DNA of 64,000 nt from Sulfurospirillum deleyianum DSM 6946 (GCF_000024885.1 NC_013512.1:248001-312000), one strand, 5' to 3'. Positions 1,417-16,124 are shown, counted from the first letter of the stretch. Made by a program: numbers and translations. The notes: generated by a model not told the origin, from the letters alone.

Positions 1417-1451
1417 ACGTAAAAACATAAAATTTTACTATGTTTTTACGT
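1417..1451. promoter_or_regulatory. Perfect 13-bp inverted repeat upstream of the psrA1 promoter
   Basis: Arms ACGTAAAAACATA (1417-1429) and TATGTTTTTACGT (1439-1451) are exact reverse complements around a 9-base loop. No T-run follows on either side beyond the arm itself, so it is a poor intrinsic terminator. It sits about 150 bases upstream of psrA1 in a 419-base gap and may be an operator or a weak terminator for the genes to the left. A degenerate copy of the ACATGT word is directly adjacent (1408-1413). Confidence 0.5.
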
Positions 1452-1530: not shown

Positions 1531-1552
1531 AAATTTACATAAAATTTACATA
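1531..1552 (+). promoter_or_regulatory. Tandem 11-bp direct repeat at the psrA1 promoter (candidate OmpR-type site)
   Basis: Two exact copies of AAATTTACATA abut each other (1531-1541 and 1542-1552). The 11-base period is one helical turn, the usual layout for dimers of OmpR/PhoB-type response regulators. A -10-like TAAGAT lies at 1560-1565, putting the repeats over the -35 region, where such activators bind. The OmpR-type regulator at 12185-12856 is an obvious but untested candidate. Confidence 0.5.
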
Positions 1553-1597: not shown

Positions 1598-3892
1598 ATG
1601 ACTCAAATGCTTAGCCGAAGAGGCTTTCTCAAGCTCTCTTCTACTGCAGCAGCCGTTGCAGGTTTTTCGAGCATCCCTGGAACTTTAGGTGCCATGGATG
1701 AGATCAAAAAACAGTACAAGGGCAACACAAAATTTACACCGAGTATTTGTGAAATGTGTACGAGTTCTTGTACCATCGAAGCACGTGTGGAAGATGGAAA
1801 AGGGATGTTCATTCGTGGCAATCCAAAGGATAAAAGCCGTGGGGGAAAAGTGTGTGCGAGAGGTTCGGCAGGGTTTAATCAGCTTTATGACCCACAACGT
1901 TTAGTCAAACCTATTATGCGTGTGGGCGAGAGAGGTGAGGGAAAGTGGAAAGAGGTCAGTTGGGACGAAGCATACACTTTCATTGCCAAAAAACTCGATG
2001 AAATCAAACAAAAGCATGGTGCGCATACGGTGGCATTTACTGCCCGTAGCGGTTGGACAAAAACATGGTTTCACAACCTCGCACAAGCCTATGGTTCTCA
2101 TAACCTGTTTGGACACGAAGCAACCTGTCCATTAGCGTATGGTATGGCGGCGAAAGATGTCTACAATCACGGAAGTATTGGGCGTGATTTTGCCAAAGCC
2201 AAATACATTATCAACATGGGTCACAATGTTTTTGAAGGGATTGTTATCTCGTATGCTCGTGCGTATATGGATGCCCTTTCTCATGGTGCGAAACTCGTCA
2301 CGTTAGAGCCTAGACTTTCAACCATGGCAGCCAAATCAACCGAATGGCATGCGATTAAACCAGGGCATGATTTGCCATTTGTTTTGGCGTTTATTCATAC
2401 CTTGATTCATGAAAATCTTTACGATAAAAAATTTGTTGAGAAGTATTGTGAAGGGTTTGAGGAGTTAAAAGCTTCTGTTGAACCATATACTCCTGAGAAG
2501 ATGGCTGTTGAGTGTGATATTCCAGCCGATACGATTAAACGCTTAGCCAGAGAGTTTGCAAAAGCGGCTCCAAAAGCGGTTTTTGACTATGGTCACCGTG
2601 TAACATTTACTCCTCAAGAGTTAGAGCTTCGCCGTGCGATGATGATGGTAAATGCTCTTGTGGGTGCTGTGGAGAAAGAGGGTGGATACTATTTGGGTAA
2701 AAGTGCGGATTTTTACAACCAGTTTATCGGTGAGGGTGATCCCAAAGCACCTAAACTTAAAAAACCAAAAATTCCTGCGTATCCAAAAGTGAGTGTTCCT
2801 CGCATTGATAGAATTGGCGAAAAAGACAGTGAATTTTTCTTAGCCAAAAAAGGGGCTGGTATTGTGACGTTGGTGCCACATGCGGCACTTAAAGAGCTTC
2901 CAGGAGTAGGTTACAAAATTCATGGTTGGTTTATTGCCCGTAATAATCCTGTGATGACACAATCGAATATGGAAAATGTCATTAAAGCGCTGAAGGCGAT
3001 GGATTTGGTGGTCGTTCATGACATTCAAGTCTCCGATACGGCATGGTTTGCGGATGTTGTTCTTCCAGATACGACCTATCTTGAAAGAGATGAAGAGTTT
3101 ACCGCCAGTGGTAGCAAAAACCCAAGTTACGGTGTGGGTCGCCAAAAAGTGGTTGAACCCGTAGGCGATGCACGTCCGGGTTGGCGTGTGGCAAAAGAGT
3201 TAGCGGAAAAAATGGGTTTAAGTGCGTACTTCCCATACAAAGACATTGAGGATTATCGTTTGCAACAAGTGGGCGATAATATTGATTTACTCGCCAAACT
3301 CAAAGCCAACGGCAGTGCGAGTTTTGGTGTGCCTCTTTTATTGCAAGATAAAAAAAGTGTTGCAAATTTTGTGAAAAAATTTCCATCTGCCGCGGTGCAT
3401 GTTAATGAGGAAGGCACGATCGATTTTCCTCACAAAATTAAACTCTTTAGTCCCAAACTTGAAGAGGTTTCTAAAAAAGGAGCCCTTAGTTACGAGCCGT
3501 ACAAATACAAAGAGAATGATGAGCTCTATTTTATCAATGGAAAATCAGCCGTTCGTACCAATGGTCATAACGGTAACAATGTGTGGCTTAATAACTTATT
3601 GGATGATGCGGCGGTGTGGATTCATCCAAAAACAGCAGCACGACTGGGCATTAAAAATGGCGATAATATCGAGGTTTATAACAAATACTCTAGCCAAAAA
3701 GGCAAAGCCCTCGTGACCAAAGGGGTTAGAGAAGATACGGTGTTTGCTTACTTTGGATTTGGTCATGTGAGTAAAGAGCTAAAACGTGCCTATGGCAAAG
3801 GTGTTCATAGTAATGCGCTTTATTCGCCACATGTATCGGCTAACTGCGGTATGAACCTGCATGTTGTTGGCGTTAAAGTTAAAAAAGCGTAA
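1598..3892 (+). CDS. psrA: Polysulfide/thiosulfate reductase-type molybdopterin catalytic subunit (first copy)
   Basis: 764 residues, the normal size for PsrA/PhsA of the DMSO-reductase superfamily. The N-terminus has a twin-arginine signal (SRRGFLK at residues 6-12, then a hydrophobic stretch), so the enzyme is exported folded. Cys51, Cys54, Cys58 and Cys86 form the C-x2-C-x3-C-x27-C site for a [4Fe-4S] cluster. Cys177 in [10 protein letters not shown] is the likely molybdenum ligand, as in PsrA. The C-terminal molybdopterin-dinucleotide domain includes the [12 protein letters not shown] and NGHNGNN regions. It reduces polysulfide or thiosulfate with electrons from PsrB/PsrC. Followed after 15 bases by psrB. 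Sequence alone does not separate polysulfide, thiosulfate or a related oxyanion as substrate. Confidence 0.9.
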
Positions 3893-3907
3893 GGGGAGGA
3901 GAGAACA

Positions 3908-4480
3908 ATGGCAAAAAAATATGCAATGGTCCACGACAACAATCTCTGCATCGGCTGTCAAGCGTGCAATGTTGCGTGTAGATCCGAAAATCAACTACCA
4001 GAATCAGTCTATCGTTTGCAAGTGTGGATTAAGCCTGAAGAGTATCCCAATGGAACACTAGGCTACGAATACCACCGCCAATCGTGTGTGCATTGTGAAA
4101 ATACACCGTGTGTCAACGTCTGTCCAACCCACGCTTCGTTTAAAAATGAAGATGGCATCGTGCTTGTAGATGTGGACTTGTGCGTGGGATGTTTGTACTG
4201 TGTGGCAGCCTGTCCGTATCAAGCACGTTACGTAGACCCAGTAACCAAAGCGCCCAATAAATGTACCTTTTGCTACGAATCACGCTTAAGCAGAGGCGAA
4301 GAGCCTGCGTGTGTGACCGTGTGTCCCACAGAAGCGTTGGTATTTGGGGATTTAAATGACCCTCAAAGCAAAATCAACACCGTGCTTTCAGAGCGTGTCA
4401 CGTACCAACAAAAAGAGAGACTTGGAACAAAGCCAAAAATGTTTATTGTACCAAACCATAAAGGAGGGATCAAATCATGA
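3908..4480 (+). CDS. psrB: Four-cluster ferredoxin-type electron transfer subunit (PsrB)
   Basis: 190 residues with four Cys groups typical of the DMSO-reductase B-subunit family. The first is CIGCQACNVAC near residues 14-24, then CVHCENTPCVNVCP, CVGCLYCVAACP, and finally CTFCYES with CVTVCP. These bind four [4Fe-4S] clusters in a chain between PsrC and PsrA. There is no signal peptide; such subunits are exported with the Tat-signal-bearing PsrA. GGAGG-like sequence precedes the ATG. The stop overlaps the psrC start by 4 bases (ATGA), implying coupled translation. Confidence 0.92.
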   Translation: MAKKYAMVHDNNLCIGCQACNVACRSENQLPESVYRLQVWIKPEEYPNGTLGYEYHRQSCVHCENTPCVNVCPTHASFKNEDGIVLVDVDLCVGCLYCVAACPYQARYVDPVTKAPNKCTFCYESRLSRGEEPACVTVCPTEALVFGDLNDPQSKINTVLSERVTYQQKERLGTKPKMFIVPNHKGGIKS

Positions 4481-5442
4481 ATCACATCGCAGGCTCATTA
4501 GAGCAATACTCAACACTTATATGGCATTGGCCGATTGCGGTTTATCTTTTTTTAGCAGGACTCTCTGCGGGTGCGGCGATGACCTCTTTGATGGTAAAAT
4601 GGATAGAAGGTAACAACAAAGCGCCATGGGATGGTTTGATTAAAGCAGGTGCGCTTCTAGCGCCACTGACCATTTGTTTGGGTCTGTTTTTATTGATTTT
4701 TGACTTAACAAGACCGCTTCATTTTTGGAAATTGTTGATTCATTATAACTTTAGCTCGGTGATGACACTGGGTGTTTTAGGCCTTTTTATCTATACGCCA
4801 CTGAGTTTCATTTACGCAGCGATTAAGTTTAAACCGTGGTTGTTTGAAACGGGTCCTTTTGCAGGACTTTTAAAACCGTTTAAAGGCATCATTGACAGTA
4901 TTGGCGACAATCCAGCATGGTTAGAGCGAACCCTTTTCTTGTTTGCGGTTATCATCGGTATCTATACAGGCTTTTTACTCTCAGCCATGTACAGTTATCC
5001 GCTCTTTAACACACCGTTGTTGCCGATTCTTTTTCTCGCTTCTGGGCTTTCATCAGGCGTTGCGGCTTCGATTTTGTTTGGACTTCTCTTTTTCAAATCA
5101 GAGGTCAACCAAAAAAATGCCAAATACCTTTTGGAGCTTGACTTAAGAGTGGTACCGATGGAGTTGTTGCTTTTATTTGCACTCTTTGTGGGTATGTATT
5201 TTCAAGGAGGCGATAAAACACTCGTTGCTATCCAAGCTTTAACCACAGGTGTGTGGGCATATGTCTTCTGGATTGGTGTGATTGGGATTGGTATTGCTAC
5301 GCCTCTTTTAATTGCGGTAACGGCTTTAAGACACCATGCGTACCGTGTAGGTTACATTTTGCTTAATTCCGTAGTCGTACTTGTGGGTGTTGTTTTCTTA
5401 AGACTTTACATTCTCTATGCGGGTCAAACCTTCGTAGGCTAA
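4477..5442 (+). CDS. psrC: NrfD/PsrC-family quinol-oxidising membrane anchor
   Basis: 321 residues with about eight strongly hydrophobic helices, matching the NrfD/PsrC family. The first helix region (WHWPIAVYLFLAGLSAGAAM) is typical of the family. The subunit anchors PsrAB to the periplasmic face and oxidises menaquinol. A second copy at 11213-12181 is clearly related along its whole length. The gene ends 10 bases before a strong terminator, so psrABC is a closed three-gene operon. Confidence 0.92.
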   Translation: MNHIAGSLEQYSTLIWHWPIAVYLFLAGLSAGAAMTSLMVKWIEGNNKAPWDGLIKAGALLAPLTICLGLFLLIFDLTRPLHFWKLLIHYNFSSVMTLGVLGLFIYTPLSFIYAAIKFKPWLFETGPFAGLLKPFKGIIDSIGDNPAWLERTLFLFAVIIGIYTGFLLSAMYSYPLFNTPLLPILFLASGLSSGVAASILFGLLFFKSEVNQKNAKYLLELDLRVVPMELLLLFALFVGMYFQGGDKTLVAIQALTTGVWAYVFWIGVIGIGIATPLLIAVTALRHHAYRVGYILLNSVVVLVGVVFLRLYILYAGQTFVG

Positions 5443-5452
5443 AAAAATAGTC

Positions 5453-5480
5453 AAAAACCCCCAAAATTGGGGGTTTTTTT
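5453..5480 (+). terminator. Intrinsic terminator of psrABC
   Basis: AAAAACCCCC (5453-5462) pairs with GGGGGTTTTT (5469-5478) across a short AATT-rich loop, and a run of T completes a textbook rho-independent terminator immediately after psrC. Confidence 0.92.
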
Positions 5481-5565
5481 TATTGGTAAAATGGTTTTAT
5501 TGTGATAGAATTTCCCATGTATCGCCGCCTTAAAGGAATTACAAAATACTATCTGGGGCATTTTT

Positions 5566-8367
5566 GTGAAATTAATCAACCATACCTATCAAACGCTTGA
5601 GGCGTTAGAAGTCTTTGTTAAAAGTACTTTTAAAGGCGATGAGCACTTACTCATTCAACTTTTTTGTGGTGAAGTCGAACACCATCAACTCTCTTCTGTT
5701 ATCTCCTTTTTAAAATCCTTTTTTTCTAATAGTGTACTCATTGGTGCTAGTACCGCTGGAGAGATAGCTTCTGGAGTGATATATTCGCATTCGATACAAA
5801 TCAGTTTTTGCCATCTTGAAAAATCTCAAGCGAAAGTTTATTATTTTGAGGATGCCAGTTTTGAAAATGGGAAAAAAGCTGCACAGGCACTTTTAGAGGA
5901 TGATACCAAAGTATGCATCGCTTTTTCACACCCTTTTGGAGAAGATGATAGTGAATCTTTTTTAGAAGGATTTAATATGCACGCCTCGCATATTCCTTTA
6001 GCAGGGGGTAATGTTGCGGATAAATTTTTACTTCAAAAAACGTCTATTATCTATGAAAATCAAATCGTAGAACGGGGTATTGTGTTGGTTGGTTTACGTG
6101 GAAAATCTTTACATGTAAATAGTGCGTATTCTTTAGGTTGGACACCTTTAGGTAAAGAGTTTTTAGTAACCAAAGCACACAATAACGCACTCTACGAAAT
6201 TGATGGTGTGCCTGTAAAGTCAATTTATGAGCACTATTTAGGAAGCGGTAGTGTGAAAAAATTTCCTTACAATGCGATGGAATTTCCATTTATGAAAATG
6301 TCTGATGGCATCGAAGTGTATCGTTCTTTAATTGCTCAAAACACAGATGGTTCGTTTCACTATGCAGGGCATCTTATTGTAGGAGATACAATACGTTTTG
6401 CCATTGGAAATGTTGAGGAGATTATGCAAAAAGCCTTACTTTTACAAGAAAAAATGGATGAAAAACCAGTAGAAGCACTTTTTGTCTATTCGTGTAGTGC
6501 ACGACAACTTTTTCTCAAAGAGCATTTAAATTATGAGTGTGAGCTTTTAGAAAATATTGCGCCAACGGCTGGATTTTTTACCTATGGGGAGTTTTTTCAC
6601 TCCAAGCGTAAAAATCAGCTTTTTAATCTTGCTACTACGGTTTTAGGACTCAGTGAATCTGATTTTATGGTGAATCATACGGTGACTAAAACGCCAGAAG
6701 TACACTGTTCAACCCTCAAAGCCCTTACCCATTTAGTCAATACAACTCAGCATGAACTCGATGTTAATGTCAATTTTCTTAATCAGTATAAAAAAATATT
6801 AGACGCATCTTGTATGGTCTCTAAGGTGAGTGTTGATAAGGTGATTACCTATGTCAGTGAGCCTTTTTGTGCCATGGCTGGTTTTTCAAAAGAGGAGATT
6901 TTAGGGCAAAGCCACCGTATTTTTAGACCCAGTGATGCTGACCCTTCTTTGTATGATGATCTTTGGGCAACAATACGTAAAAAAGAGATATGGAAAGGCA
7001 TAACCAAAGGGGTTAATAAAAGTGGGCAAACGCATTATTTGCAAAATACGATTATGCCTATTTTGGATGAAAATGGGGAGATTTTAGAGTATATTTGTGC
7101 GCATTTTGATATCACAGAGTTGGTGCTTAAAGAGAGAATTATTGAGAAGCATTTTAAGGATGAACTCACAGGCTTTGGAAACAGAGAAGCCCTCTTTTAC
7201 CGTTTAAATTTAGACCATCAGCCTAAATTGTTGGTTTTGATTAATTTGGTTGGATTTTCAGAGATCAATGACTATTTGGGCTATGATGTGGGTGATGAGC
7301 TTTTAAAATATGTAGGGCGTTTTTTAGCGACGAGTTTTCATAATTGCAGTGATGTGGTGTTTCGTATCAATGGTGATGAGTTTGCAATTCTTTTATGCGG
7401 TAATGATTTGAAAAATGATGGTATAGATGCATTTATTACTAAAAGTGTCAAAGAGTTAGAGAAAAAAGTTTTCACGATTCACGGATATGAAGTTGTGCTA
7501 AGGCTCAATGTGGGTGTGGCTGAGGGCAGGGATGCTAAAGTGTACATGCGTTCGCACATTGCGCTTAAAGAGGCAAAAAAAGAGAATAAGTTGATACTGT
7601 TTTACCGTGATGAAGATGAGGGATTAAAACAAAAAACCAAACACAATTTATATACGATTCAAAAGATAAAATATGCCATTGAAAATGACCGTATTGTGCC
7701 TTTCTTTCAAGGTATTTATGACAATACACTGCATCAAATCACCAAGTATGAAGTGCTGATGCGTTTGCAAGAAGAGGATGGGAGTTATTTAAGTCCCTAT
7801 CATTTTTTAGAACAGGCGAAGAAAACAAGGTTGTATGAGAAACTGACCAAGATTATGATTCAAAAGGTGTTTGCCTACTTTAAAGATTTGCCGTTTGATT
7901 TTTCAATCAATCTCACCAAAGGCGATATGCTCTCCTCTTCTGTCAAGGAGTCTTTGTTTGAGCATATTAAAAATTTTCAATGTGGGCATCGGGTTATTTT
8001 AGAAATTGTTGAATCTGAGGGTATTGAAAATTTTCATGAGATTATCCATTTTATTTATGAGGCGAAAAAGTTGGGATGTCGCATAGCCATTGATGACTTT
8101 GGAACGGGTTATTCTAATTTTTCGTATCTTATCAAGCTTGATATTGATTTTTTAAAGATAGATGGCTCGTTGATTCGAGATATTCATATCAATGAAGTGA
8201 ATTTTATGATGGTTGATACCATGGTCTCGTTTGCGCATAAAATGGGCTACAAGGTGGTGGCTGAATTTGTCGATAATCCGGAGGTTCAAGCTAAGCTTGA
8301 ATCTTTACATGTAAACTTCTCACAAGGCTATTTGTTTAGTAAACCAATGCCTATGATTGAGCGATAA
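5566..8367 (+). CDS. FIST-PAS-GGDEF-EAL signalling protein (probable c-di-GMP phosphodiesterase)
   Basis: 933 residues, cytoplasmic, no membrane helices. Order: FIST N and C domains (about 1-370, with GASTAGEI at 60-67), PAS (about 410-520), GGDEF (about 530-680), EAL (about 700-930). The GGDEF signature is NGDEF, so cyclase activity is doubtful. In the EAL domain the name motif is EVL, but the metal and catalytic motifs persist: ILEIVESEG, IDDFGTGYS (about 840), LKIDGSLI and QGYLFSKP. A phosphodiesterase is therefore the better guess. FIST domains are thought to bind small ligands such as amino acids. The start is GTG after TGGGG. Only 9 bases separate it from the second psrA, so it is the first gene of that operon. 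Confidence 0.88.
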   Translation: MKLINHTYQTLEALEVFVKSTFKGDEHLLIQLFCGEVEHHQLSSVISFLKSFFSNSVLIGASTAGEIASGVIYSHSIQISFCHLEKSQAKVYYFEDASFENGKKAAQALLEDDTKVCIAFSHPFGEDDSESFLEGFNMHASHIPLAGGNVADKFLLQKTSIIYENQIVERGIVLVGLRGKSLHVNSAYSLGWTPLGKEFLVTKAHNNALYEIDGVPVKSIYEHYLGSGSVKKFPYNAMEFPFMKMSDGIEVYRSLIAQNTDGSFHYAGHLIVGDTIRFAIGNVEEIMQKALLLQEKMDEKPVEALFVYSCSARQLFLKEHLNYECELLENIAPTAGFFTYGEFFHSKRKNQLFNLATTVLGLSESDFMVNHTVTKTPEVHCSTLKALTHLVNTTQHELDVNVNFLNQYKKILDASCMVSKVSVDKVITYVSEPFCAMAGFSKEEILGQSHRIFRPSDADPSLYDDLWATIRKKEIWKGITKGVNKSGQTHYLQNTIMPILDENGEILEYICAHFDITELVLKERIIEKHFKDELTGFGNREALFYRLNLDHQPKLLVLINLVGFSEINDYLGYDVGDELLKYVGRFLATSFHNCSDVVFRINGDEFAILLCGNDLKNDGIDAFITKSVKELEKKVFTIHGYEVVLRLNVGVAEGRDAKVYMRSHIALKEAKKENKLILFYRDEDEGLKQKTKHNLYTIQKIKYAIENDRIVPFFQGIYDNTLHQITKYEVLMRLQEEDGSYLSPYHFLEQAKKTRLYEKLTKIMIQKVFAYFKDLPFDFSINLTKGDMLSSSVKESLFEHIKNFQCGHRVILEIVESEGIENFHEIIHFIYEAKKLGCRIAIDDFGTGYSNFSYLIKLDIDFLKIDGSLIRDIHINEVNFMMVDTMVSFAHKMGYKVVAEFVDNPEVQAKLESLHVNFSQGYLFSKPMPMIER

Positions 8368-8376
8368 AGGGCTTAC

Positions 8377-10641
8377 ATGTACAATCAAAAACGCAGGGAT
8401 TTTTTCAAAATTGCCACATCCACAGCACTCCTTCCTAGCGGTTTGAGCGCTCAGGGACTTTTAGGTGGGGAAGATAAATCCATCCGTTCCCTCTGTGAAA
8501 TGTGCAGTAGCCGTTGTGCGATGGAAGCACGTGTGAAAAATGGCAGAGTGGTTTCAGTGCAGGGCAATGCGTACATGAAAGAGATGGAAACCTCTTTGTG
8601 CGCAAGAGGGGTGGCGGGTATTTCTCAACTTTACGATACGCAAAGGCTCACACAACCGCTGATTCGCATGGGAAAACGGGGTGAAAACAGGTGGCGTGCG
8701 GTGAGTTTAGAAGAAGCGCTATCGTACATTGCCAATAAACTTAGCGATTTGAAAAAAAACTATGGGGCTAAAAGCGTTATCTTCTCCTCTAAAACAGGAG
8801 AGTCGTACGATATGTTACGCTCTTTTGCTTATGCGTTTGGCTCACCCAATGTATTTTCTCACTGGAGTTCGTGTCCGATTGCGATTGAGAGTGCGTTTGA
8901 GCATACGTTTGCAGAGCGATTGGAGCGGGATTTTGAAAACGCCAATTATATTATCAATTTTGGGCATAACCTTTTTGAAGGGCTGGATATTCCTTTAACC
9001 AAAGCAATGGCACGTTTTGCCTCCAATCCGTCTAAAAAATTGGTGGTGCTTGATCCACGTTTTTCGGTAATGGCATCGAAAGCGGATGAGTGGTATCCCA
9101 TCAAGGCGGGAAGTGATTTGGCGTTTGTTCTGAGCCTTTTACATGTATGGATTCGTGATGGAAAATACGACAAAGCGTTTGTTAAAGAGTACACGGTAGG
9201 ATTTGAAAAACTAGCCGATTCACTTAAAGAGCTTACCCCACAATGGCAAGAGTCTTTCACTTCCATCCCTGCACGGGTAGTGGAGAGAATTGCGCATGAA
9301 GTGTATGAGGCTTCCCCTCGGTGTATTTTGGACTGGGGGCACAAAGCCACCACGTCTCCTTCGGAGTATCAGCGAAGCAGGGCGATTATTATTGCGAATG
9401 TTTTAATGGGAAATGTGGAAAAACGAGGGGGTATCTACTTTGTAAAGAGTGCGGAGCGTATCAATGCCTTATCTAGGGAAAAGCGTGTTCCAACGCTCAA
9501 CAACGCTTACCCTAGAGTGTTTCCAAACGAAGAGCGTTTAGAAGGAGCTGGACAAAAGGGAGCGTATGCTTTTACATCTCAAGAACACGGCGTGTTGCAA
9601 GCCATTCCTGAGGCGATACTGTCGCAAAAACCTTATGCCATTAAAGGATGGTTTTTAACCCGTCACAATCCTCTCATTACCCTTGCGCATCCGCAAAAAA
9701 TGAAAGAGGCGATGGAAGCTTTGGAATTGATTGTGGTGAATGATATTTATCTGAGTGAAACAGCGATGATGGCAGATGTGGTTTTGCCAGAAGCCACTTA
9801 TTTGGAGCGGGATGAGGGTGTTCGTGACCAGAGTGATAAGGTGCCGTGTTATACGATGCGAAATCGTGTGATTGTTCCTTTGGAGGGGACAAAAAGTGCT
9901 TTAGAGATGCTAAGAGCTTTGGCACATACCATGGGAATAGATGGGCATTATGCGTGGCGTACAATAGCAGAACTTCGTGCCTATCAAGCCAAAGGCGTGG
10001 AAAATGTCTTAGAGACACTTTTGCGCAGAGGTGTGGTGCAATTTGGGATTCCTGAGCTTTTTATGCGAGAGCCAAAAGATGTGAGCATTTTTATGGAGCG
10101 TTTTCCTAAAAGTCAACTATTTTTAGATAAAGATGGTGTGTTTGGAAAGGTGCTTAAAACCTTATCAACGCCTTCGGGAAAGATAGAGCTTTTCTGCGAA
10201 GCCATTGAGGCGCAGTTTAGCGGTTATGGTACACCACAGATGGTGGATATGGATGTGACGCAAGGGTATCCTTATGTGCTGATGAGTGGTAAAAGTGCCA
10301 TTCATACCAATGGGCATACTCAAAATGTTCCCTATTTGCATCAACTGATGTCTGATAACCCTATTTGGATGCATCCTCAAACAGCCAAAGCACATGGTCT
10401 CAAAATGGGAGAGACATTTTATATCGAAAATGGCATTGCTAAAGAGAGGGCAACGGCATTTATCACAGAGGGAATTCGCCCTGATACCCTGTTTGCGTAT
10501 ATGGGCTTTGGAAGAGAGGCTCCTGCTTTAAAACGGGCGAACGGCAAAGGGCTTAATCCCTCAAAACTACTCTCTTTACGCAGTGCGCCTGTGTGTGGAG
10601 CGATGATCAGTAATGTGGGTGTGAAGATTTCAAAAGTGTAG
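8377..10641 (+). CDS. Polysulfide/thiosulfate reductase-type molybdopterin catalytic subunit (second copy)
   Basis: 754 residues, a diverged paralogue of the protein at 1598-3892. The Tat signal is KRRDFFK (residues 5-11). Cys40, Cys43, Cys47 and Cys75 keep the C-x2-C-x3-C-x27-C cluster site, and Cys166 in HWSSCPIAIES is the likely Mo ligand. The active-site surroundings differ from the first copy (HWSSCP against HEATCP), so substrate or affinity may differ. The start codon lies inside a TTACATGTAC copy of the window-wide palindrome, and AAAGGG upstream serves as ribosome binding site. Downstream psrB- and psrC-like genes follow at 8 bases and by overlap. Thiosulfate, polysulfide or another sulfur oxyanion are all possible substrates. 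Confidence 0.88.
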   Translation: MYNQKRRDFFKIATSTALLPSGLSAQGLLGGEDKSIRSLCEMCSSRCAMEARVKNGRVVSVQGNAYMKEMETSLCARGVAGISQLYDTQRLTQPLIRMGKRGENRWRAVSLEEALSYIANKLSDLKKNYGAKSVIFSSKTGESYDMLRSFAYAFGSPNVFSHWSSCPIAIESAFEHTFAERLERDFENANYIINFGHNLFEGLDIPLTKAMARFASNPSKKLVVLDPRFSVMASKADEWYPIKAGSDLAFVLSLLHVWIRDGKYDKAFVKEYTVGFEKLADSLKELTPQWQESFTSIPARVVERIAHEVYEASPRCILDWGHKATTSPSEYQRSRAIIIANVLMGNVEKRGGIYFVKSAERINALSREKRVPTLNNAYPRVFPNEERLEGAGQKGAYAFTSQEHGVLQAIPEAILSQKPYAIKGWFLTRHNPLITLAHPQKMKEAMEALELIVVNDIYLSETAMMADVVLPEATYLERDEGVRDQSDKVPCYTMRNRVIVPLEGTKSALEMLRALAHTMGIDGHYAWRTIAELRAYQAKGVENVLETLLRRGVVQFGIPELFMREPKDVSIFMERFPKSQLFLDKDGVFGKVLKTLSTPSGKIELFCEAIEAQFSGYGTPQMVDMDVTQGYPYVLMSGKSAIHTNGHTQNVPYLHQLMSDNPIWMHPQTAKAHGLKMGETFYIENGIAKERATAFITEGIRPDTLFAYMGFGREAPALKRANGKGLNPSKLLSLRSAPVCGAMISNVGVKISKV

Positions 10642-10649
10642 GGTAAGAG

Positions 10650-11216
10650 ATGGGAAAAGCGTATCGGTTGATTTACGATGAAAATGCCTGTATTGGGTGT
10701 CAAGCGTGCAGTGTGGCGTGTCGTGTGGAGCATGGTGTGCCAGAGGATTTTTTTAGGCTTCAAGTACGTATGGAGCTTAAAGGCACTTTTCCAAATCTAG
10801 GTATGCACTATGAGCGCATGGCGTGTGTGATGTGTGAAAATCCCCCATGTGTCAGCGTTTGCCCGACCTTTGCCTCGTTTCAAGATGCACAAGGATTGGT
10901 GCATATTGATGAGCGAGTGTGTATTACATGTAAATATTGCATTTTAGCCTGTCCTTACCATGCACGTTTTGTCAATCCTATAAAAAATGTGGTTGAAAAG
11001 TGTGATTTTTGTTATGACACAAGGCTTTCTAAAAAACTTTTACCTGCGTGTGTGAGTATTTGTCCAACCGAAGCGCTGACATTTGGCGATATGCATGAAG
11101 CCCAAAGTGAAGTGCATTGTCTCTCCATGCGTGAGGTTTTGATTTTCCCTAAAGCGCATCTTCAAACAAAACCCAAAGTCGCCTTTATTCCCAATCGAAA
11201 AGGGGTCAAATCATGA
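10650..11216 (+). CDS. Four-cluster ferredoxin-type subunit of the second Psr-like enzyme
   Basis: 188 residues with the same four-cluster pattern as the first PsrB: CIGCQACSVAC, CVMCENPPCVSVCP, CITCKYCILACP, then CDFCYDT and CVSICP. One cluster-binding segment (ITCK) is encoded by a copy of the TTACATGTAA palindrome at 10924-10933, so the word overlaps cysteine ligands without harming the motif. The stop overlaps the next start as ATGA. Confidence 0.9.
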   Translation: MGKAYRLIYDENACIGCQACSVACRVEHGVPEDFFRLQVRMELKGTFPNLGMHYERMACVMCENPPCVSVCPTFASFQDAQGLVHIDERVCITCKYCILACPYHARFVNPIKNVVEKCDFCYDTRLSKKLLPACVSICPTEALTFGDMHEAQSEVHCLSMREVLIFPKAHLQTKPKVAFIPNRKGVKS

Positions 11217-12181
11217 CACCAATTTGGGGCAGTGTGGCACAGTATGAGATGATTCATTGGTCGTGGGCGATTGCAGTCTATCTTTTTCTAGCAGGGCTTA
11301 GTTCAGGCTCTATCATGGTCGCTCTTCTTGTAAAATGGAACCGCCATGAACGCAGTAACTCCTCGATTTGGGATGCGATGATTAAATCAGGTGCGGTGGT
11401 CGCCCCTGTGGCAATTTTTCTAGGTCTGCTTCTTTTAGTAGTCGATTTGGGGCGTCCTCTTTCTTTTTATTGGCTTTTGATTCGCTACAACATTACCTCG
11501 GTGATGAGTTTGGGGGTACTTTTTTTACTGCTTTATACGCCTATTGTGGTGGTGTTTATGCTCTTAGTCTTTGAGCGTACGGTGATTAAATATACCTTTT
11601 TATCGCCTTTGGTGGCTTTGATTCAAACGGTGAAAGAGCTACACTCGTATGCAAAAGTGATTGAGTATTTTCTTTTTATTACGGCGTTGTGTATTAGTTC
11701 TTATACGGGATTTTTACTCTCTGCTTTGTATGCGATTCCTTTGTGGAATAGCCCTGTTTTACCTATTTTATTTTTGACTTCAAGCCTCTCTTTAGGGATT
11801 GCGGTGAACATTTTAACAGGACTTCTTTTTTTTAAAAGTACGATGAATGCCGAGAGCATCAAATACCTTTTGGTGCTGGATTTGCGGGTTATTTTAACGG
11901 AGTTGCCACTCTTAGCCCTTTTATTTATTGGGATGGTTTACGCAGGGGAAGAGTCCGCACAAGCGGCAAAAGCAGCGCTTTCACAAGGCTTTTGGGCAGG
12001 ACTTTTTTGGATAGGGGTGATTGGTGCAGGACTTGGTTTGCCTTTGCTGACTGTTATTTTCGCACTCAAAAGTCATGTATATCGTTTGCATTATGTTGTG
12101 ATTAACTCGATGGTAGTGATTGCAGGGGTGCTTATTCTTCGCTATTATATTGTCTATGCAGGGCAAATTTATTTAGGATAG
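11213..12181 (+). CDS. NrfD/PsrC-family membrane subunit of the second Psr-like enzyme
   Basis: 322 residues, about eight helices, opening with HWSWAIAVYLFLAGLSSGS, nearly the same as the first copy. It is expected to oxidise menaquinol at the inner membrane and pass electrons to its Fe-S partner. Three bases separate it from the response regulator gene, so structural and regulatory genes appear to share one transcript. Confidence 0.9.
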   Translation: MTPIWGSVAQYEMIHWSWAIAVYLFLAGLSSGSIMVALLVKWNRHERSNSSIWDAMIKSGAVVAPVAIFLGLLLLVVDLGRPLSFYWLLIRYNITSVMSLGVLFLLLYTPIVVVFMLLVFERTVIKYTFLSPLVALIQTVKELHSYAKVIEYFLFITALCISSYTGFLLSALYAIPLWNSPVLPILFLTSSLSLGIAVNILTGLLFFKSTMNAESIKYLLVLDLRVILTELPLLALLFIGMVYAGEESAQAAKAALSQGFWAGLFWIGVIGAGLGLPLLTVIFALKSHVYRLHYVVINSMVVIAGVLILRYYIVYAGQIYLG

Positions 12182-12184
12182 GGC

Positions 12185-12856
12185 ATGAAAATTTTATTGT
12201 TAGAAGATGATTATAACTACAACGAAAGTATCAAAGAGTATTTGGAACTTCTAGGCTATGAGGTGGATGCTTTTTTTGATGGCGAGAGTGCGTTGGATGC
12301 GATTATGCAAAAGACCTACTATCTCTTTTTACTCGATGTCAAAGTGCCTAAATTAAATGGTCACGAACTGATAAAATACATCAAAGAGGCGAACATTACC
12401 ACACCCATTATTATCATTACCTCTTTGGTGGATATTGACAATATCGCTATTGGGTATGAGCTTGGGTGTAATGACTATCTTAAAAAGCCTTTTGAGCTTA
12501 AAGAGTTAGAACTGCGTGTGAAAGAGTTGATTAAGAAGCATTACCAAACCAGCTCCGAGAGTGAGTTTACACTCGCATGTGGGTATATCTTTAACTTTGA
12601 GACAGGAGAGCTTAAAAAAGAGGATAAAACGATTGTGACGTTTACCTCAAAAGAGCAAGATTTGGTGCGTTTTTTGATTCGTCGAAAAAACAGTTTTTGT
12701 GATATTGAGATGATTCGTGAAAACGTGTGGGAAGGCAAAGAGATAAGCTATGCAGACATACGAATGTATATTCGAAAAATTAGACTGAAAGTAGGAGATG
12801 AGCATTTCATCAAATCATCCAGAGGCTTAGGATACAAAATCGATGTTGTCTTATAA
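12185..12856 (+). CDS. OmpR-family response regulator
   Basis: 223 residues. Receiver domain 1-115: acidic pair Glu7-Asp8-Asp9, phospho-acceptor Asp51 in LFLLDVKVP, ITS switch residue, and the conserved Lys in LKKPF. The C-terminal winged helix (about 125-220) ends SSRGLGYKI, the usual OmpR/PhoB end. Its start is 3 bases after the membrane subunit gene and its end overlaps the kinase start by 14 bases. It probably controls one or both psr operons; the tandem repeats at 1531-1552 are a candidate site. Confidence 0.93.
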   Translation: MKILLLEDDYNYNESIKEYLELLGYEVDAFFDGESALDAIMQKTYYLFLLDVKVPKLNGHELIKYIKEANITTPIIIITSLVDIDNIAIGYELGCNDYLKKPFELKELELRVKELIKKHYQTSSESEFTLACGYIFNFETGELKKEDKTIVTFTSKEQDLVRFLIRRKNSFCDIEMIRENVWEGKEISYADIRMYIRKIRLKVGDEHFIKSSRGLGYKIDVVL

Positions 12857-14024
12857 CCCACTGCGTTTGGTTTTTGTTTATACCCTTCTTGTTATGGCAC
12901 TTTTTTGTGTGCCCAGTTACTTTGCGATTCAAAGTACCATTATGGAAGAGAAGTATAAAGCTACGCACGAATTGGTTGAATGGATAGGCAACCATGAAAA
13001 AACGATTTTTGCAACGCCTTCGTTTGAAATTCCTCGTAGTGTGCGTTTTCATATCAATATTTACGATGACAGGCATGCATTGTTGCATTGTGATATCACT
13101 GAGCCTTTGAATGATTTGGATTTTAGGGTGCGGTTTATTTATCCTTTTTTGTACTATCAAAAAGAGGTTAAAACGCCTGAGGGGCTTTACTATTTGGTGG
13201 TGCAACTCCAACTGAATTACGCCAAAATCATCTTTTTAACCACAATGCTTTTTTTTAGTGTGCTTTTTTTGATTTACGTGATGAGTCATATTTTTATCAA
13301 CTCCAGTATCTATCCTTACCGTAAAACGCAACAATACATGAACGATTTTTTTAACGATTCGATGCATGAGCTTAAAACGCCTTTGGGTGTGATTAACATC
13401 AATGTTGAACTGCTTTCGCATTACAGTGCTCCTTCCAAGCATCTTCAACGCATTAAAGCAGCCACCAAGCAGATGCAGATGACCTATGAAGATGTGGAGT
13501 ATTACATTAAAAATAAAAAGGTAACCTATAATAAAGAGGTGATTAATCTCTCCGAATATCTTAATTTGCGTATTGCTTTTTTTGAAGATATTGCGATTTC
13601 AAAGTCCATCGTTTTGGTGGCGAATGTAAGTCCTAAAATGATGATTTATATGAATAAAGTAGAGTTGCAACGCATCATTGATAACACACTTTCCAACGCC
13701 ATAAAATACTCTTTTTTTCAAGGCATAGTGGAAATTGGTTTGGTTGAAAAAGATGAGACGCAGTGTATTTTAACGATTCAAGATTATGGGCAGGGCATTA
13801 AGGATTTGTATAAGGTTTTTAAACGCTTTGAGCGGGAAGATTCAGTGCAGGGTGGTTTTGGATTGGGGCTTAATATCGTCCATAATATCTGCAATAAAAA
13901 CGACATTGACATCGAAATAGAGTCGTATGAAAACAAAGGTTCACGCTTTACTTACATTTTCAAACGGGATAAAAAGAAACTGCTGGATTTTGTTGAAGCA
14001 GATGAGAAAAAGGGTCTTTCATGA
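12843..14024 (+). CDS. Membrane sensor histidine kinase
   Basis: 393 residues with two membrane helices (about 5-25 and 120-145) enclosing a roughly 95-residue periplasmic sensing domain. The phospho-acceptor is His175 in SMHELKTPLG. The ATPase domain has the N box NTLSNAIKYS, GQGI and GFGLGLNIV. It is the cognate kinase of the overlapping upstream regulator. The last codons overlap the next gene by 4 bases. The signal is unknown, but operon context suggests a sulfur compound or the redox state of the enzyme. Confidence 0.92.
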   Translation: MLSYNPLRLVFVYTLLVMALFCVPSYFAIQSTIMEEKYKATHELVEWIGNHEKTIFATPSFEIPRSVRFHINIYDDRHALLHCDITEPLNDLDFRVRFIYPFLYYQKEVKTPEGLYYLVVQLQLNYAKIIFLTTMLFFSVLFLIYVMSHIFINSSIYPYRKTQQYMNDFFNDSMHELKTPLGVININVELLSHYSAPSKHLQRIKAATKQMQMTYEDVEYYIKNKKVTYNKEVINLSEYLNLRIAFFEDIAISKSIVLVANVSPKMMIYMNKVELQRIIDNTLSNAIKYSFFQGIVEIGLVEKDETQCILTIQDYGQGIKDLYKVFKRFEREDSVQGGFGLGLNIVHNICNKNDIDIEIESYENKGSRFTYIFKRDKKKLLDFVEADEKKGLS

Positions 14025-14869
14025 AAGAGAAAAAGTTTTTTTTAAGTGCGACGCTGATGTTGCTTTTTGGCGTTATTATGCTCTTTTTGTATCAAAAATC
14101 AATGGCATATGAAGAGGAAGAGGCGTTGCAAAAGCAGATGGACTCTTTGCTGTTGACCCTGCACACGAAAATTAAAGAAACAACAACGATTTCGCTCGCT
14201 AGTTCAGTGGTTTTGGCAAAAAATCCTTATGTCCTTGCCTGCTTGAGAGAGCAAGATAAAGAGAAGTGTTTGGACTACTTGATAGAGATTAAAAATACCC
14301 TTGCGTATGCTAATGTTTTTGAAAATGCCCGTTTTCATCTTCATACCAAAACGTTTAAGAGTTTTATGCGGTTGTGGGATTATAACAATCAAGCGCTTGA
14401 TGATTTAAGTGCTTTTCGCCATGCGTTAGAGAAAATCAAGGAAACAAAGTATCCGATGGATGGGGTTGAAATCGGGCGACATGGAATGTTTTTGCGTGCG
14501 ATTGTGCCTGTTATTGATGCGCATGAGTATCTAGGAACGCTAGAAACAGTGGTTGATTTTAAGGCGCTGAGTGATTATTTTAGTAAAGATGGTGTGACGT
14601 TTTATGTACTGATGAAAAATGAGTACCGCTCCATCGCCAATGCGATTGTGTATGATGAAAAGCTCTCGTTAGATAACTATACGATTGTCAATCAATCTTT
14701 CAATGGACTCTATTTTATTAAAGAGATGAATTTTCAAGGTACGGGTTATGTCAAGCGAGGTGACCACTACGTCCTTTATACACCGATTATGGATTTGAAT
14801 GGCGAAAATGTAGGGTTTTTTGTTTTAACATGGAAAGAGAGTCTCTCCTTAGCCTCGTTTAAAGGCTAA
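14021..14869 (+). CDS. Periplasmic Cache-like sensor protein with no output domain
   Basis: 282 residues: one N-terminal membrane helix (about 8-27) and then a periplasmic domain to the very end. The pattern FHLHTKTFKSFMRLW with DDLSAFR matches the double-Cache sensory modules found in epsilonproteobacterial chemoreceptors and kinases. There is no HAMP, kinase, MA or DNA-binding part, so it cannot signal alone. Translation is coupled to the kinase by a 4-base overlap. The likely role is a ligand-binding partner of the kinase. A simple binding protein is an alternative. Confidence 0.7.
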   Translation: MKEKKFFLSATLMLLFGVIMLFLYQKSMAYEEEEALQKQMDSLLLTLHTKIKETTTISLASSVVLAKNPYVLACLREQDKEKCLDYLIEIKNTLAYANVFENARFHLHTKTFKSFMRLWDYNNQALDDLSAFRHALEKIKETKYPMDGVEIGRHGMFLRAIVPVIDAHEYLGTLETVVDFKALSDYFSKDGVTFYVLMKNEYRSIANAIVYDEKLSLDNYTIVNQSFNGLYFIKEMNFQGTGYVKRGDHYVLYTPIMDLNGENVGFFVLTWKESLSLASFKG

Positions 14870-16124
14870 GGTTTTTTCTCGCTTCATTTCGGATTCTATC
14901 CATGCCCATGTAAAATTCTTTCATGAGTACTAAAAAGAGATAATCCCCAAACTCTGTGGTGACAATGCTCTCTTTATTCTCTTTAATCGCTTTAGCAAAT
15001 TTAAGCGCCATCAGCTCTTTTTTAAGGGCATCTTCGATTTTGATGCCAAACATTATTTCAAATTTTTTCTTTGAGAGTTTGCCGTTGAAAAGATCAACCA
15101 TCAAGCGATAGTACATACGAGAATTTGCCTCAAAGGTACGCTCTTTAACCACCGCACTTTTTCTCTGTGCAATACATTCTGCGTATTTATCAAGCGCAAA
15201 TTCGTTATGGTAGAGGGTGTTGTTGATAAAACTAAACGAGCCAGAGCCCACACCTACATACTCTTCATTGTCGATGACGTACTCATCAAAAATCGCCTCT
15301 TTCTCTTTGGAAAATGACCAACCATGACGAGAGGGGTAAGACTTTTTAAGAGACTCTTTGATGATGTTAAAAAACTCATATTCATTGGTAAGGCTAAATT
15401 TCCCTAGGGTTTTAGTCACACTGCTTTTGACCATAGATGAGGTCATCAGCGGGTAAAAACTGCTCTGCTCAGGTGAGAGTTTTGTCAATGTTTCAATATC
15501 GTACAAAAGATTTTCCTTGCTTTGATTAGGAAAATTAAAAATCAAATCCACACTGGTAATTGGTAAAATACCGAGCATGGAGGCAATTTTTCGGTACACC
15601 TCTTCGCCTGAGCCAAATTTTTCATAGCGTCCGAGTTTTTTCAAAAGTGTGTCATCAAAGGTTTGAACACCCACAGAGAGGCGATCGACCAAACCATCGA
15701 GGCGAAGCACGGTTTTGGGTTGAATGTGGTTAGGGTCACTCTCACAGGAAACATGCTTAATGTCAAAGAGTTTTTTCACCAGTTCAATGGTTTGAATCAG
15801 CTCTTCTTCATCAATGAGCGGTGTTCCTCCCCCAATGACAAGGTAGTTAAAACGATAGCCAAGTGCTTTTACATGTAAAATCTCTTCACGCAAATGTTTA
15901 AAGTAGTGGGTTGCTGCCTCTTTGGTGTAGTTAAATTTGTTAAAGGAGCAGTAGGGACAAAACATGGTACAAAAAGGCACATGAATGTACAACAGATACT
16001 CTTTATCTTCAGGCGGTGGCGGCAATCTATCAGCAGGCTTTTTTACATGTAAATAGTGTTTGGTGTATTGGTGCATAAAATAACTGGTCGCATTGGTGAT
16101 AATCTTAACGTTGTTTTCTCTCAT
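14859..16124 (-). CDS. HemN/HemW-family radical SAM protein
   Basis: 421 residues. HVPFCTMFCPYCSF carries Cys52, Cys56 and Cys59, the C-x3-C-x2-C site for the radical-SAM [4Fe-4S] cluster, followed by the GGGTP SAM-binding motif. The C-terminal domain resembles HemN-type proteins. Those act in oxygen-independent coproporphyrinogen oxidation or as heme chaperones. The fourth Cys of true HemN (C-x-C) is replaced by C-S-F, which favours the HemW/HutW side. It converges on the Cache gene with an 11-base overlap. Two copies of the TTTACATGTAAA word lie inside (15869, 16042). Confidence 0.82.
   Translation of the reverse strand: MRENNVKIITNATSYFMHQYTKHYLHVKKPADRLPPPPEDKEYLLYIHVPFCTMFCPYCSFNKFNYTKEAATHYFKHLREEILHVKALGYRFNYLVIGGGTPLIDEEELIQTIELVKKLFDIKHVSCESDPNHIQPKTVLRLDGLVDRLSVGVQTFDDTLLKKLGRYEKFGSGEEVYRKIASMLGILPITSVDLIFNFPNQSKENLLYDIETLTKLSPEQSSFYPLMTSSMVKSSVTKTLGKFSLTNEYEFFNIIKESLKKSYPSRHGWSFSKEKEAIFDEYVIDNEEYVGVGSGSFSFINNTLYHNEFALDKYAECIAQRKSAVVKERTFEANSRMYYRLMVDLFNGKLSKKKFEIMFGIKIEDALKKELMALKFAKAIKENKESIVTTEFGDYLFLVLMKEFYMGMDRIRNEARKNLSL

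Follow-up and report, generated by a model that had tools for sequence, protein, structure and literature searches.

The psr2 locus and its reductase

The window analysed here is a 64,000-bp stretch (248001-312000) of the single 2,306,351-bp contig of Sulfurospirillum deleyianum 5175T, a polar-flagellated organism that reduces sulfur and thiosulfate (PMC3035281). At 5566-14869 of this window, seven + strand genes follow one another at spacings of at most 9 bp or with overlaps (junctions, in order, +9, +8, -4, +3, -14 and -4 bp), and a strong terminator lies on each side. The ORF coordinates and Pfam domains bear out both the colinearity and the identities proposed in an initial annotation of this DNA, namely a FIST-PAS-GGDEF-EAL protein, PsrA, PsrB, PsrC, a response regulator (RR), a histidine kinase (HK) and a Cache protein (Table 1). 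A stem equivalent to the terminator upstream of the first gene is also present in relatives, and at the other end a HemN-like gene is convergent with the Cache gene, which it overlaps by 11 bp.

Table 1. Features of the psr1-psr2 region, in positions of the window
Feature	Position	Strand	Remarks
PDE, FIST-PAS-GGDEF(degenerate)-EAL	5566-8367	+	GTG start; Pfam FIST, FIST_C, PAS, GGDEF, EAL
psrA2, molybdopterin catalytic subunit	8377-10641	+	Pfam Molybdopterin, Fe4S4; Tat motif RRDFFK; conserved Cys166
psrB2, 4Fe-4S subunit	10650-11216	+	Pfam Fer4
psrC2, NrfD-type membrane subunit	11213-12181	+	Pfam NrfD
RR, OmpR-type response regulator	12185-12856	+	Pfam Response_reg, Trans_reg_C
HK, histidine kinase	12843-14024	+	Pfam HisKA, HATPase_c
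Orphan Cache sensor	14021-14869	+	Pfam dCache_3 alone; no output domain
Bidirectional terminator between psr1 and psr2 operons	5453-5478	.	11-pair stem and T run
Promoter-like site of PDE gene	5483-5511	+	extended -10 TTGTGATAGAAT
Operon-closing terminator	14847-14871	+	terminator prediction
psrABC1, first Psr operon	1598-5442	+	psrA1 1598-3892, psrB1 3908-4480, psrC1 4477-5442
Candidate RR box TTTACATAAAATTTAC	1534-1549	+	upstream of psrA1; followed by -10-like TAAGAT at 1560-1565
Secondary TTTAC-N6-TTTAC repeat TTTACTATGTTTTTAC	1434-1449	+	upstream of psrA1; exact pattern match, weak alone, as the loose pattern also occurs by chance elsewhere

PsrABC2 has the make-up of PsrABC/PhsABC reductases: a Tat-exported molybdopterin subunit with a conserved cysteine, an Fe-S subunit and an NrfD membrane subunit, the same three subunits and domains as in the Wolinella enzyme and in Thermus 2vpw, which is the best PDB match of PsrA2. 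By analogy with known structures, the conserved cysteine of PsrA2 would be the Mo ligand. PsrA2 reaches 1088 bits with the NCBIfam model PRK15488, above the PhsA cut-off of 694, and the psr1 operon scores 1138 bits with the same model; PsrA2 and PsrA1 are only 39% identical. The sequence does not discriminate between polysulfide and thiosulfate as the substrate of PsrABC2. Wolinella psr is controlled by the AraC-type PsrR, the only regulator of Psr described in a review of the Campylobacterota, and not by a two-component system of the S. deleyianum kind (PMC6682613).

The psr genes also vary within the genus. Between the window (1598-16124) and a near relative (L125:1213-15754), psrA2 is 79% identical, below all of its flanks (psrA1 98%, PDE 93%, RR 99%, HemN 95%), a divergence that suggests internal replacement or recombination in psr2. 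Across six further loci (L028-L031, L033 and L034) psr1 is mosaic, with psrC1 about 54% identical in several species and more than 90% in others, and psrA1 of one genome (G065) is 60% identical; the psr1 subunits seem to have been exchanged separately. In another genome (G020, L028:9255-11538) stops interrupt the psrA2 match and the gene is divided between two overlapping ORFs, so that this copy looks broken.

A predicted phosphodiesterase gene between two psr operons

The initial annotation had named an inactive EAL domain as grounds for dismissing a link between sulfur respiration and c-di-GMP. This is not the case at the level of sequence, as the EAL catalytic set (ExLxR, Asn, Glu, DD, Lys, Glu, Gln) is complete: all eleven residues checked (E729/L731/R733, N782, E813, E816, D843, D844, K864, E900 and Q920) are intact, and they are identical in 17/17 aligned proteins. 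In all 11 genus proteins the GGDEF domain has NGDEF and an NLVxF-type site in place of the GG(D/E)EF signature and DxDxF metal site of diguanylate cyclases, and the protein has no hydrophobic or transmembrane segment. An intact EAL domain together with a degenerate GGDEF domain predicts that the first gene product is likely a soluble c-di-GMP phosphodiesterase (PDE). Its AlphaFold model (pLDDT 80.6; pTM 0.46, so that the domain arrangement is unsure) matches the C-terminal PAS-GGDEF-EAL structures of RbdA (PA0861) and DosP, as do sequence comparisons (5xgb/5xge, 9cmf), but the PDE differs from both in having an N-terminal FIST domain instead of their input domains, and in its NGDEF motif with the metal-site Asp missing.

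We considered whether the FIST domain is a NosP-type NO sensor, and rejected this assignment on a NosP model score of 46 bits, where the cut-off is 450. In the NosP-NosK-NosR system, a kinase and a c-di-GMP response regulator are the targets of a FIST sensor (PMC12570481). The S. deleyianum locus resembles it in that a FIST domain is linked with c-di-GMP turnover and a two-component system is nearby, but here FIST is fused to PAS-GGDEF-EAL rather than forming a stand-alone heme-binding protein of the NosP type, and the RR output is DNA-binding. A sequence search found no solved structure related to the FIST domain. The neighbours of distant PDE orthologues (LpxB, HSP90, radical SAM and others) were likewise rejected as a guide to the FIST ligand, being unrelated.

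Of the first 12 genus genomes sampled, the window's own included, 11 share the order psr1-PDE-psr2-RR-HK-Cache-HemN; the twelfth (G172) is without psr1, psr2 and PDE. A close PDE orthologue (at least 53% identity) is present in 18/24 genus genomes and adjoins psr2 as far as contigs allow. This synteny and adjacency argue that the seven-gene order is not due to chance. The PDE and the psr genes also occur separately: a basal Sulfurospirillum MAG (L147) carries psr1-psr2-RR-HK-Cache without PDE, Arcobacter/Malaciobacter genomes carry psrABC-RR-HK-Cache without PDE, and Campylobacter genomes with the set also have no PDE, their Cache gene usually being divergent or a few genes off. PDE orthologues beyond the genus, with about 45% identity, lie away from psr. 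This distribution suggests that psrABC2-RR-HK-Cache is an old module in the Campylobacterota. Because the module occurs elsewhere without PDE, and PDE orthologues occur elsewhere away from psr, the PDE gene is best read as a later, Sulfurospirillum-specific insertion between psr1 and psr2.

Such an insertion might be no more than an ordinary neighbourhood, in which the PDE merely landed between two psr operons and the PDE and the two-component system control unrelated processes. With 21 EAL domains encoded in this 2.3-Mb genome, a landing by chance is possible, and the unrelated neighbours of PDE orthologues outside the genus fit it as well, but those examined genus genomes with a close orthologue (lowest identity 53%) have retained the insertion at this position, and we regard this alternative as unlikely. 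The explanation that we hold to be on balance probable is that the seven genes form a genuine operon with two separate histories, an old psr2-RR-HK-Cache module acting on psr1 and a PDE inserted later.

The initial annotation had called the coupling of a sulfur reductase to c-di-GMP turnover unusual. We found no report of such coupling, and nothing relevant on a Cache protein with a thiosulfate two-component system, in the literature searched, which left subscription papers mostly outside. As gene linkage the coupling is real and persists across most of the genus, but the occurrence of the module elsewhere without PDE indicates that it is not ancestral and probably recent.

A candidate regulator box and its predicted target

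The psr1 operon carries none of the regulatory or c-di-GMP genes of psr2, as had been noted before, but it bears the sole strong candidate RR site. The exact 16-mer TTTACATAAAATTTAC occurs once per genome in 19/24 genus genomes (0 for the reversed control), and its sites begin 64-66 bp upstream of the psrA1 start wherever both lie on one contig. The box precedes psrA1 at 12/12 loci, compared with 0.02 expected from shuffles (the first match counted at L134 is a variant further upstream). It was found before psrA2-type psrA at 12/33 loci, all outside the genus, compared with 0.08 expected; it precedes PDE at 0/15 loci and was not found before psrA2 within the genus. In Arcobacter (L070-L072), TTTACATAAAATTTAC and then a TAAGAT -10 stand before psrA of a psr-RR-HK-Cache operon, and several Campylobacter genomes have TTTAC-N6-TTTAC upstream of psrA at a similar distance, with a clear box missing in C. 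concisus and some others. The psrA genes that lack this regulator carry a mismatched box at L079 and none at L078 and L149.

Exact letters and position are needed for the pattern to be informative, as a loose genome scan with TTKAC-N6-TTKAC gave 57 matches and the reversed control 40. Some tsdA promoters bear a TTGACG variant. A TsdA-type repeat, TTGACGCAAAATTGAC, lies elsewhere in the S. deleyianum genome (L084:12684-12699; G000:C1:1858683-1858698), some 107 bp ahead of what reads as the Rieske subunit gene of a cytochrome bc1 operon.

An 11-bp direct repeat suits an OmpR/PhoB-type regulator, and we infer that the RR encoded with psr2 binds the candidate box. Because the box precedes psrA1 and not PDE or psrA2, the kinase system encoded with psr2 probably controls psr1. 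By binding the direct repeat close to -35, the RR would activate a psr promoter: in Arcobacter and Campylobacter that of the operon to which it belongs, in Sulfurospirillum that of the neighbouring psrA1 operon. Read-through from the boxed psr1 promoter into PDE is doubtful, given the terminator between them, so that the Sulfurospirillum RR may not induce its own operon; the psrA2 promoters of the genus are without a box.

The PDE gene would have been inserted with a promoter of its own: T(T/A)TGATAnAAT stands after the psr1 terminator and before PDE in 8/11 genus genomes. In 9/11 genus genomes the PDE-psrA2 interval contains a further conserved element, TTTAAAGTCAAATTATCnTACAATA, which is retained even where insertions of about 100 bp part it from PDE or psrA2. 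We rejected TTTAAAGTCAAATTATCnTACAATA as an RR box, as its spacing does not fit TTTAC-N6-TTTAC plus a -10, and take it as an ordinary promoter-like element. S. deleyianum and its near relatives lack this element; their PDE and psrA2 genes abut (0-11 bp), and psr2 and the sensor genes would there probably depend on the PDE promoter. Separate promoters, which together with unrelated expression had been put forward as evidence against a shared unit, may thus divide PDE from psrA2 in most of the genus but not in the S. deleyianum clade, where common control of PDE and psr2 is most plausible.

These data bear on the earlier proposal that one compound sets both respiration and attachment or motility. 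In its fullest form, a single ligand acting via Cache, HK and RR would switch on all seven co-transcribed genes, so that sulfur respiration and c-di-GMP are set together. Tight colinearity within single outer terminators, the abutting PDE and psrA2 genes of the S. deleyianum clade and the persistence of PDE beside psr through most of the genus agree with this, as does a tsdA-linked regulator in the genus that likewise has a GGDEF-EAL neighbour. Against it, PDE lacks the regulator box in 15/15 loci, the box sits instead ahead of psrA1, on the far side of a conserved terminator, promoter-like elements are separate for PDE and psrA2 in 9/11 genus genomes, and the module exists elsewhere without PDE. 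We consider joint induction of all seven genes improbable. Of the earlier proposal, the colinear, terminator-bounded unit stands, but the likely target of the two-component system is psr1; that the same ligand drives the c-di-GMP link is possible. The inserted PDE makes it testable whether sulfur supply alters attachment to particulate sulfur.

Cache-RR-HK sets beside sulfur genes

The HK has two hydrophobic segments, a periplasmic loop of about 95 residues without a known domain, and only HisKA and HATPase_c domains. The Cache protein has an N-terminal membrane anchor of one helix followed by a periplasmic dCache domain with a cysteine pair (C74/C83); its model has a dCache fold (pLDDT 86.7), and its nearest structures are histidine kinase sensor domains such as 3lie and DctB. 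Their adjacency suggests that kinase and Cache protein interact. The membrane-anchored Cache protein would sense an inorganic sulfur compound (thiosulfate, tetrathionate or polysulfide) and act via the short-loop HK, by phosphotransfer, on the OmpR-type RR.

To place this system, orphan dCache_3 relatives of the window protein were gathered across the order, and a subset of loci was read, picked by Cache similarity and small size and not at random. Among the loci so chosen, 53 of 56 complete Cache-RR-HK sets lie beside psr, tsdA or sox, that is, genes of thiosulfate, tetrathionate or polysulfide metabolism: psr 17, tsdA 24 (23-24, as L118 goes better with sox), sox 12-13 and none 3. SoxY and SoxZ were confirmed in sampled sox-linked loci. 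In a tree of 63 HKs, built by a quick method and containing one very long branch (L109), all 25 psr-linked HKs lie to the same side of a branch that has 99% support, and the tsdA and sox groups are mostly apart. This recurrence of sulfur linkage in three HK lineages also argues against a two-component system that stands beside PDE and psr as an unrelated neighbour.

The window system, with an orphan dCache_3 protein, OmpR-type RR and short-loop HK beside psr, fits what we define here as the Campylobacterota Cache-RR-HK sulfur regulator, and its RR, HK and Cache genes appear, from gene content and linkage, to belong to a wider family tied to sulfur metabolism. C74 and C83 are present in 19/19 psr-linked Cache proteins examined, at identities down to about 23%, and the pair occurs in 0/36 Cache proteins of the complete tsdA- or sox-linked sets. 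As the psr-linked systems form one group, the pair is a single gain kept by selection rather than 19 separate events. Its role could be that of a redox/polysulfide switch, through which the psr class would perhaps sense its ligand, or simply that of a structural disulfide.

The nearest tested precedent is ThsSR of Shewanella halifaxensis, a thiosulfate-sensing two-component system beside phsAB-psrC (PMC5408782). Both are two-component systems next to a Psr/Phs-type reductase, with a sulfur compound as the input (for the present system, the predicted one), and ThsSR activates the promoter of its reductase. They differ in sensor domain, regulator family and architecture: in the Shewanella pair a PhnD-like sensor is fused to ThsS, and ThsR is FixJ-like (PMC5408782), whereas the S. 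deleyianum system has an OmpR-type RR, a kinase loop without a known domain, a separate dCache protein and a predicted target in the neighbouring psr1. The fused PhnD-like periplasmic sensor that marks ThsSR/TtrSR kinases is thus absent from this HK.

We tentatively propose, while holding it to be somewhat less than an even chance in its entirety, an unnamed Campylobacterota three-component family for inorganic sulfur (dCache sensor, short-loop HK, OmpR-type RR and 11-bp direct-repeat box, in sox, tsdA and psr lineages), in which the psr-lineage cysteine pair is a thiol-reactive switch for polysulfide or tetrathionate, and beside which a PDE was twice placed in Sulfurospirillum. If true, sox, tsdA and psr would share one testable regulatory principle in Arcobacter, Campylobacter, Sulfurospirillum and relatives; the 16-bp target and the cysteine pair, both defined, would be open to mutation, and a new sensor would become available with which to detect polysulfide, thiosulfate or tetrathionate. 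This three-component regulator and its predicted target are more interesting content of the locus than the c-di-GMP link.

Outside the window, the same genome holds a second Cache-RR-HK set (L069:7565-14351; G000:C1:236565-243351), divergent from a TsdA-like dihaem cytochrome. About 420 bp downstream of it lies a gene for a CHASE4-PAS-GGDEF-EAL protein of 842 aa with intact EAL motifs, and this arrangement recurs in other Sulfurospirillum genomes.
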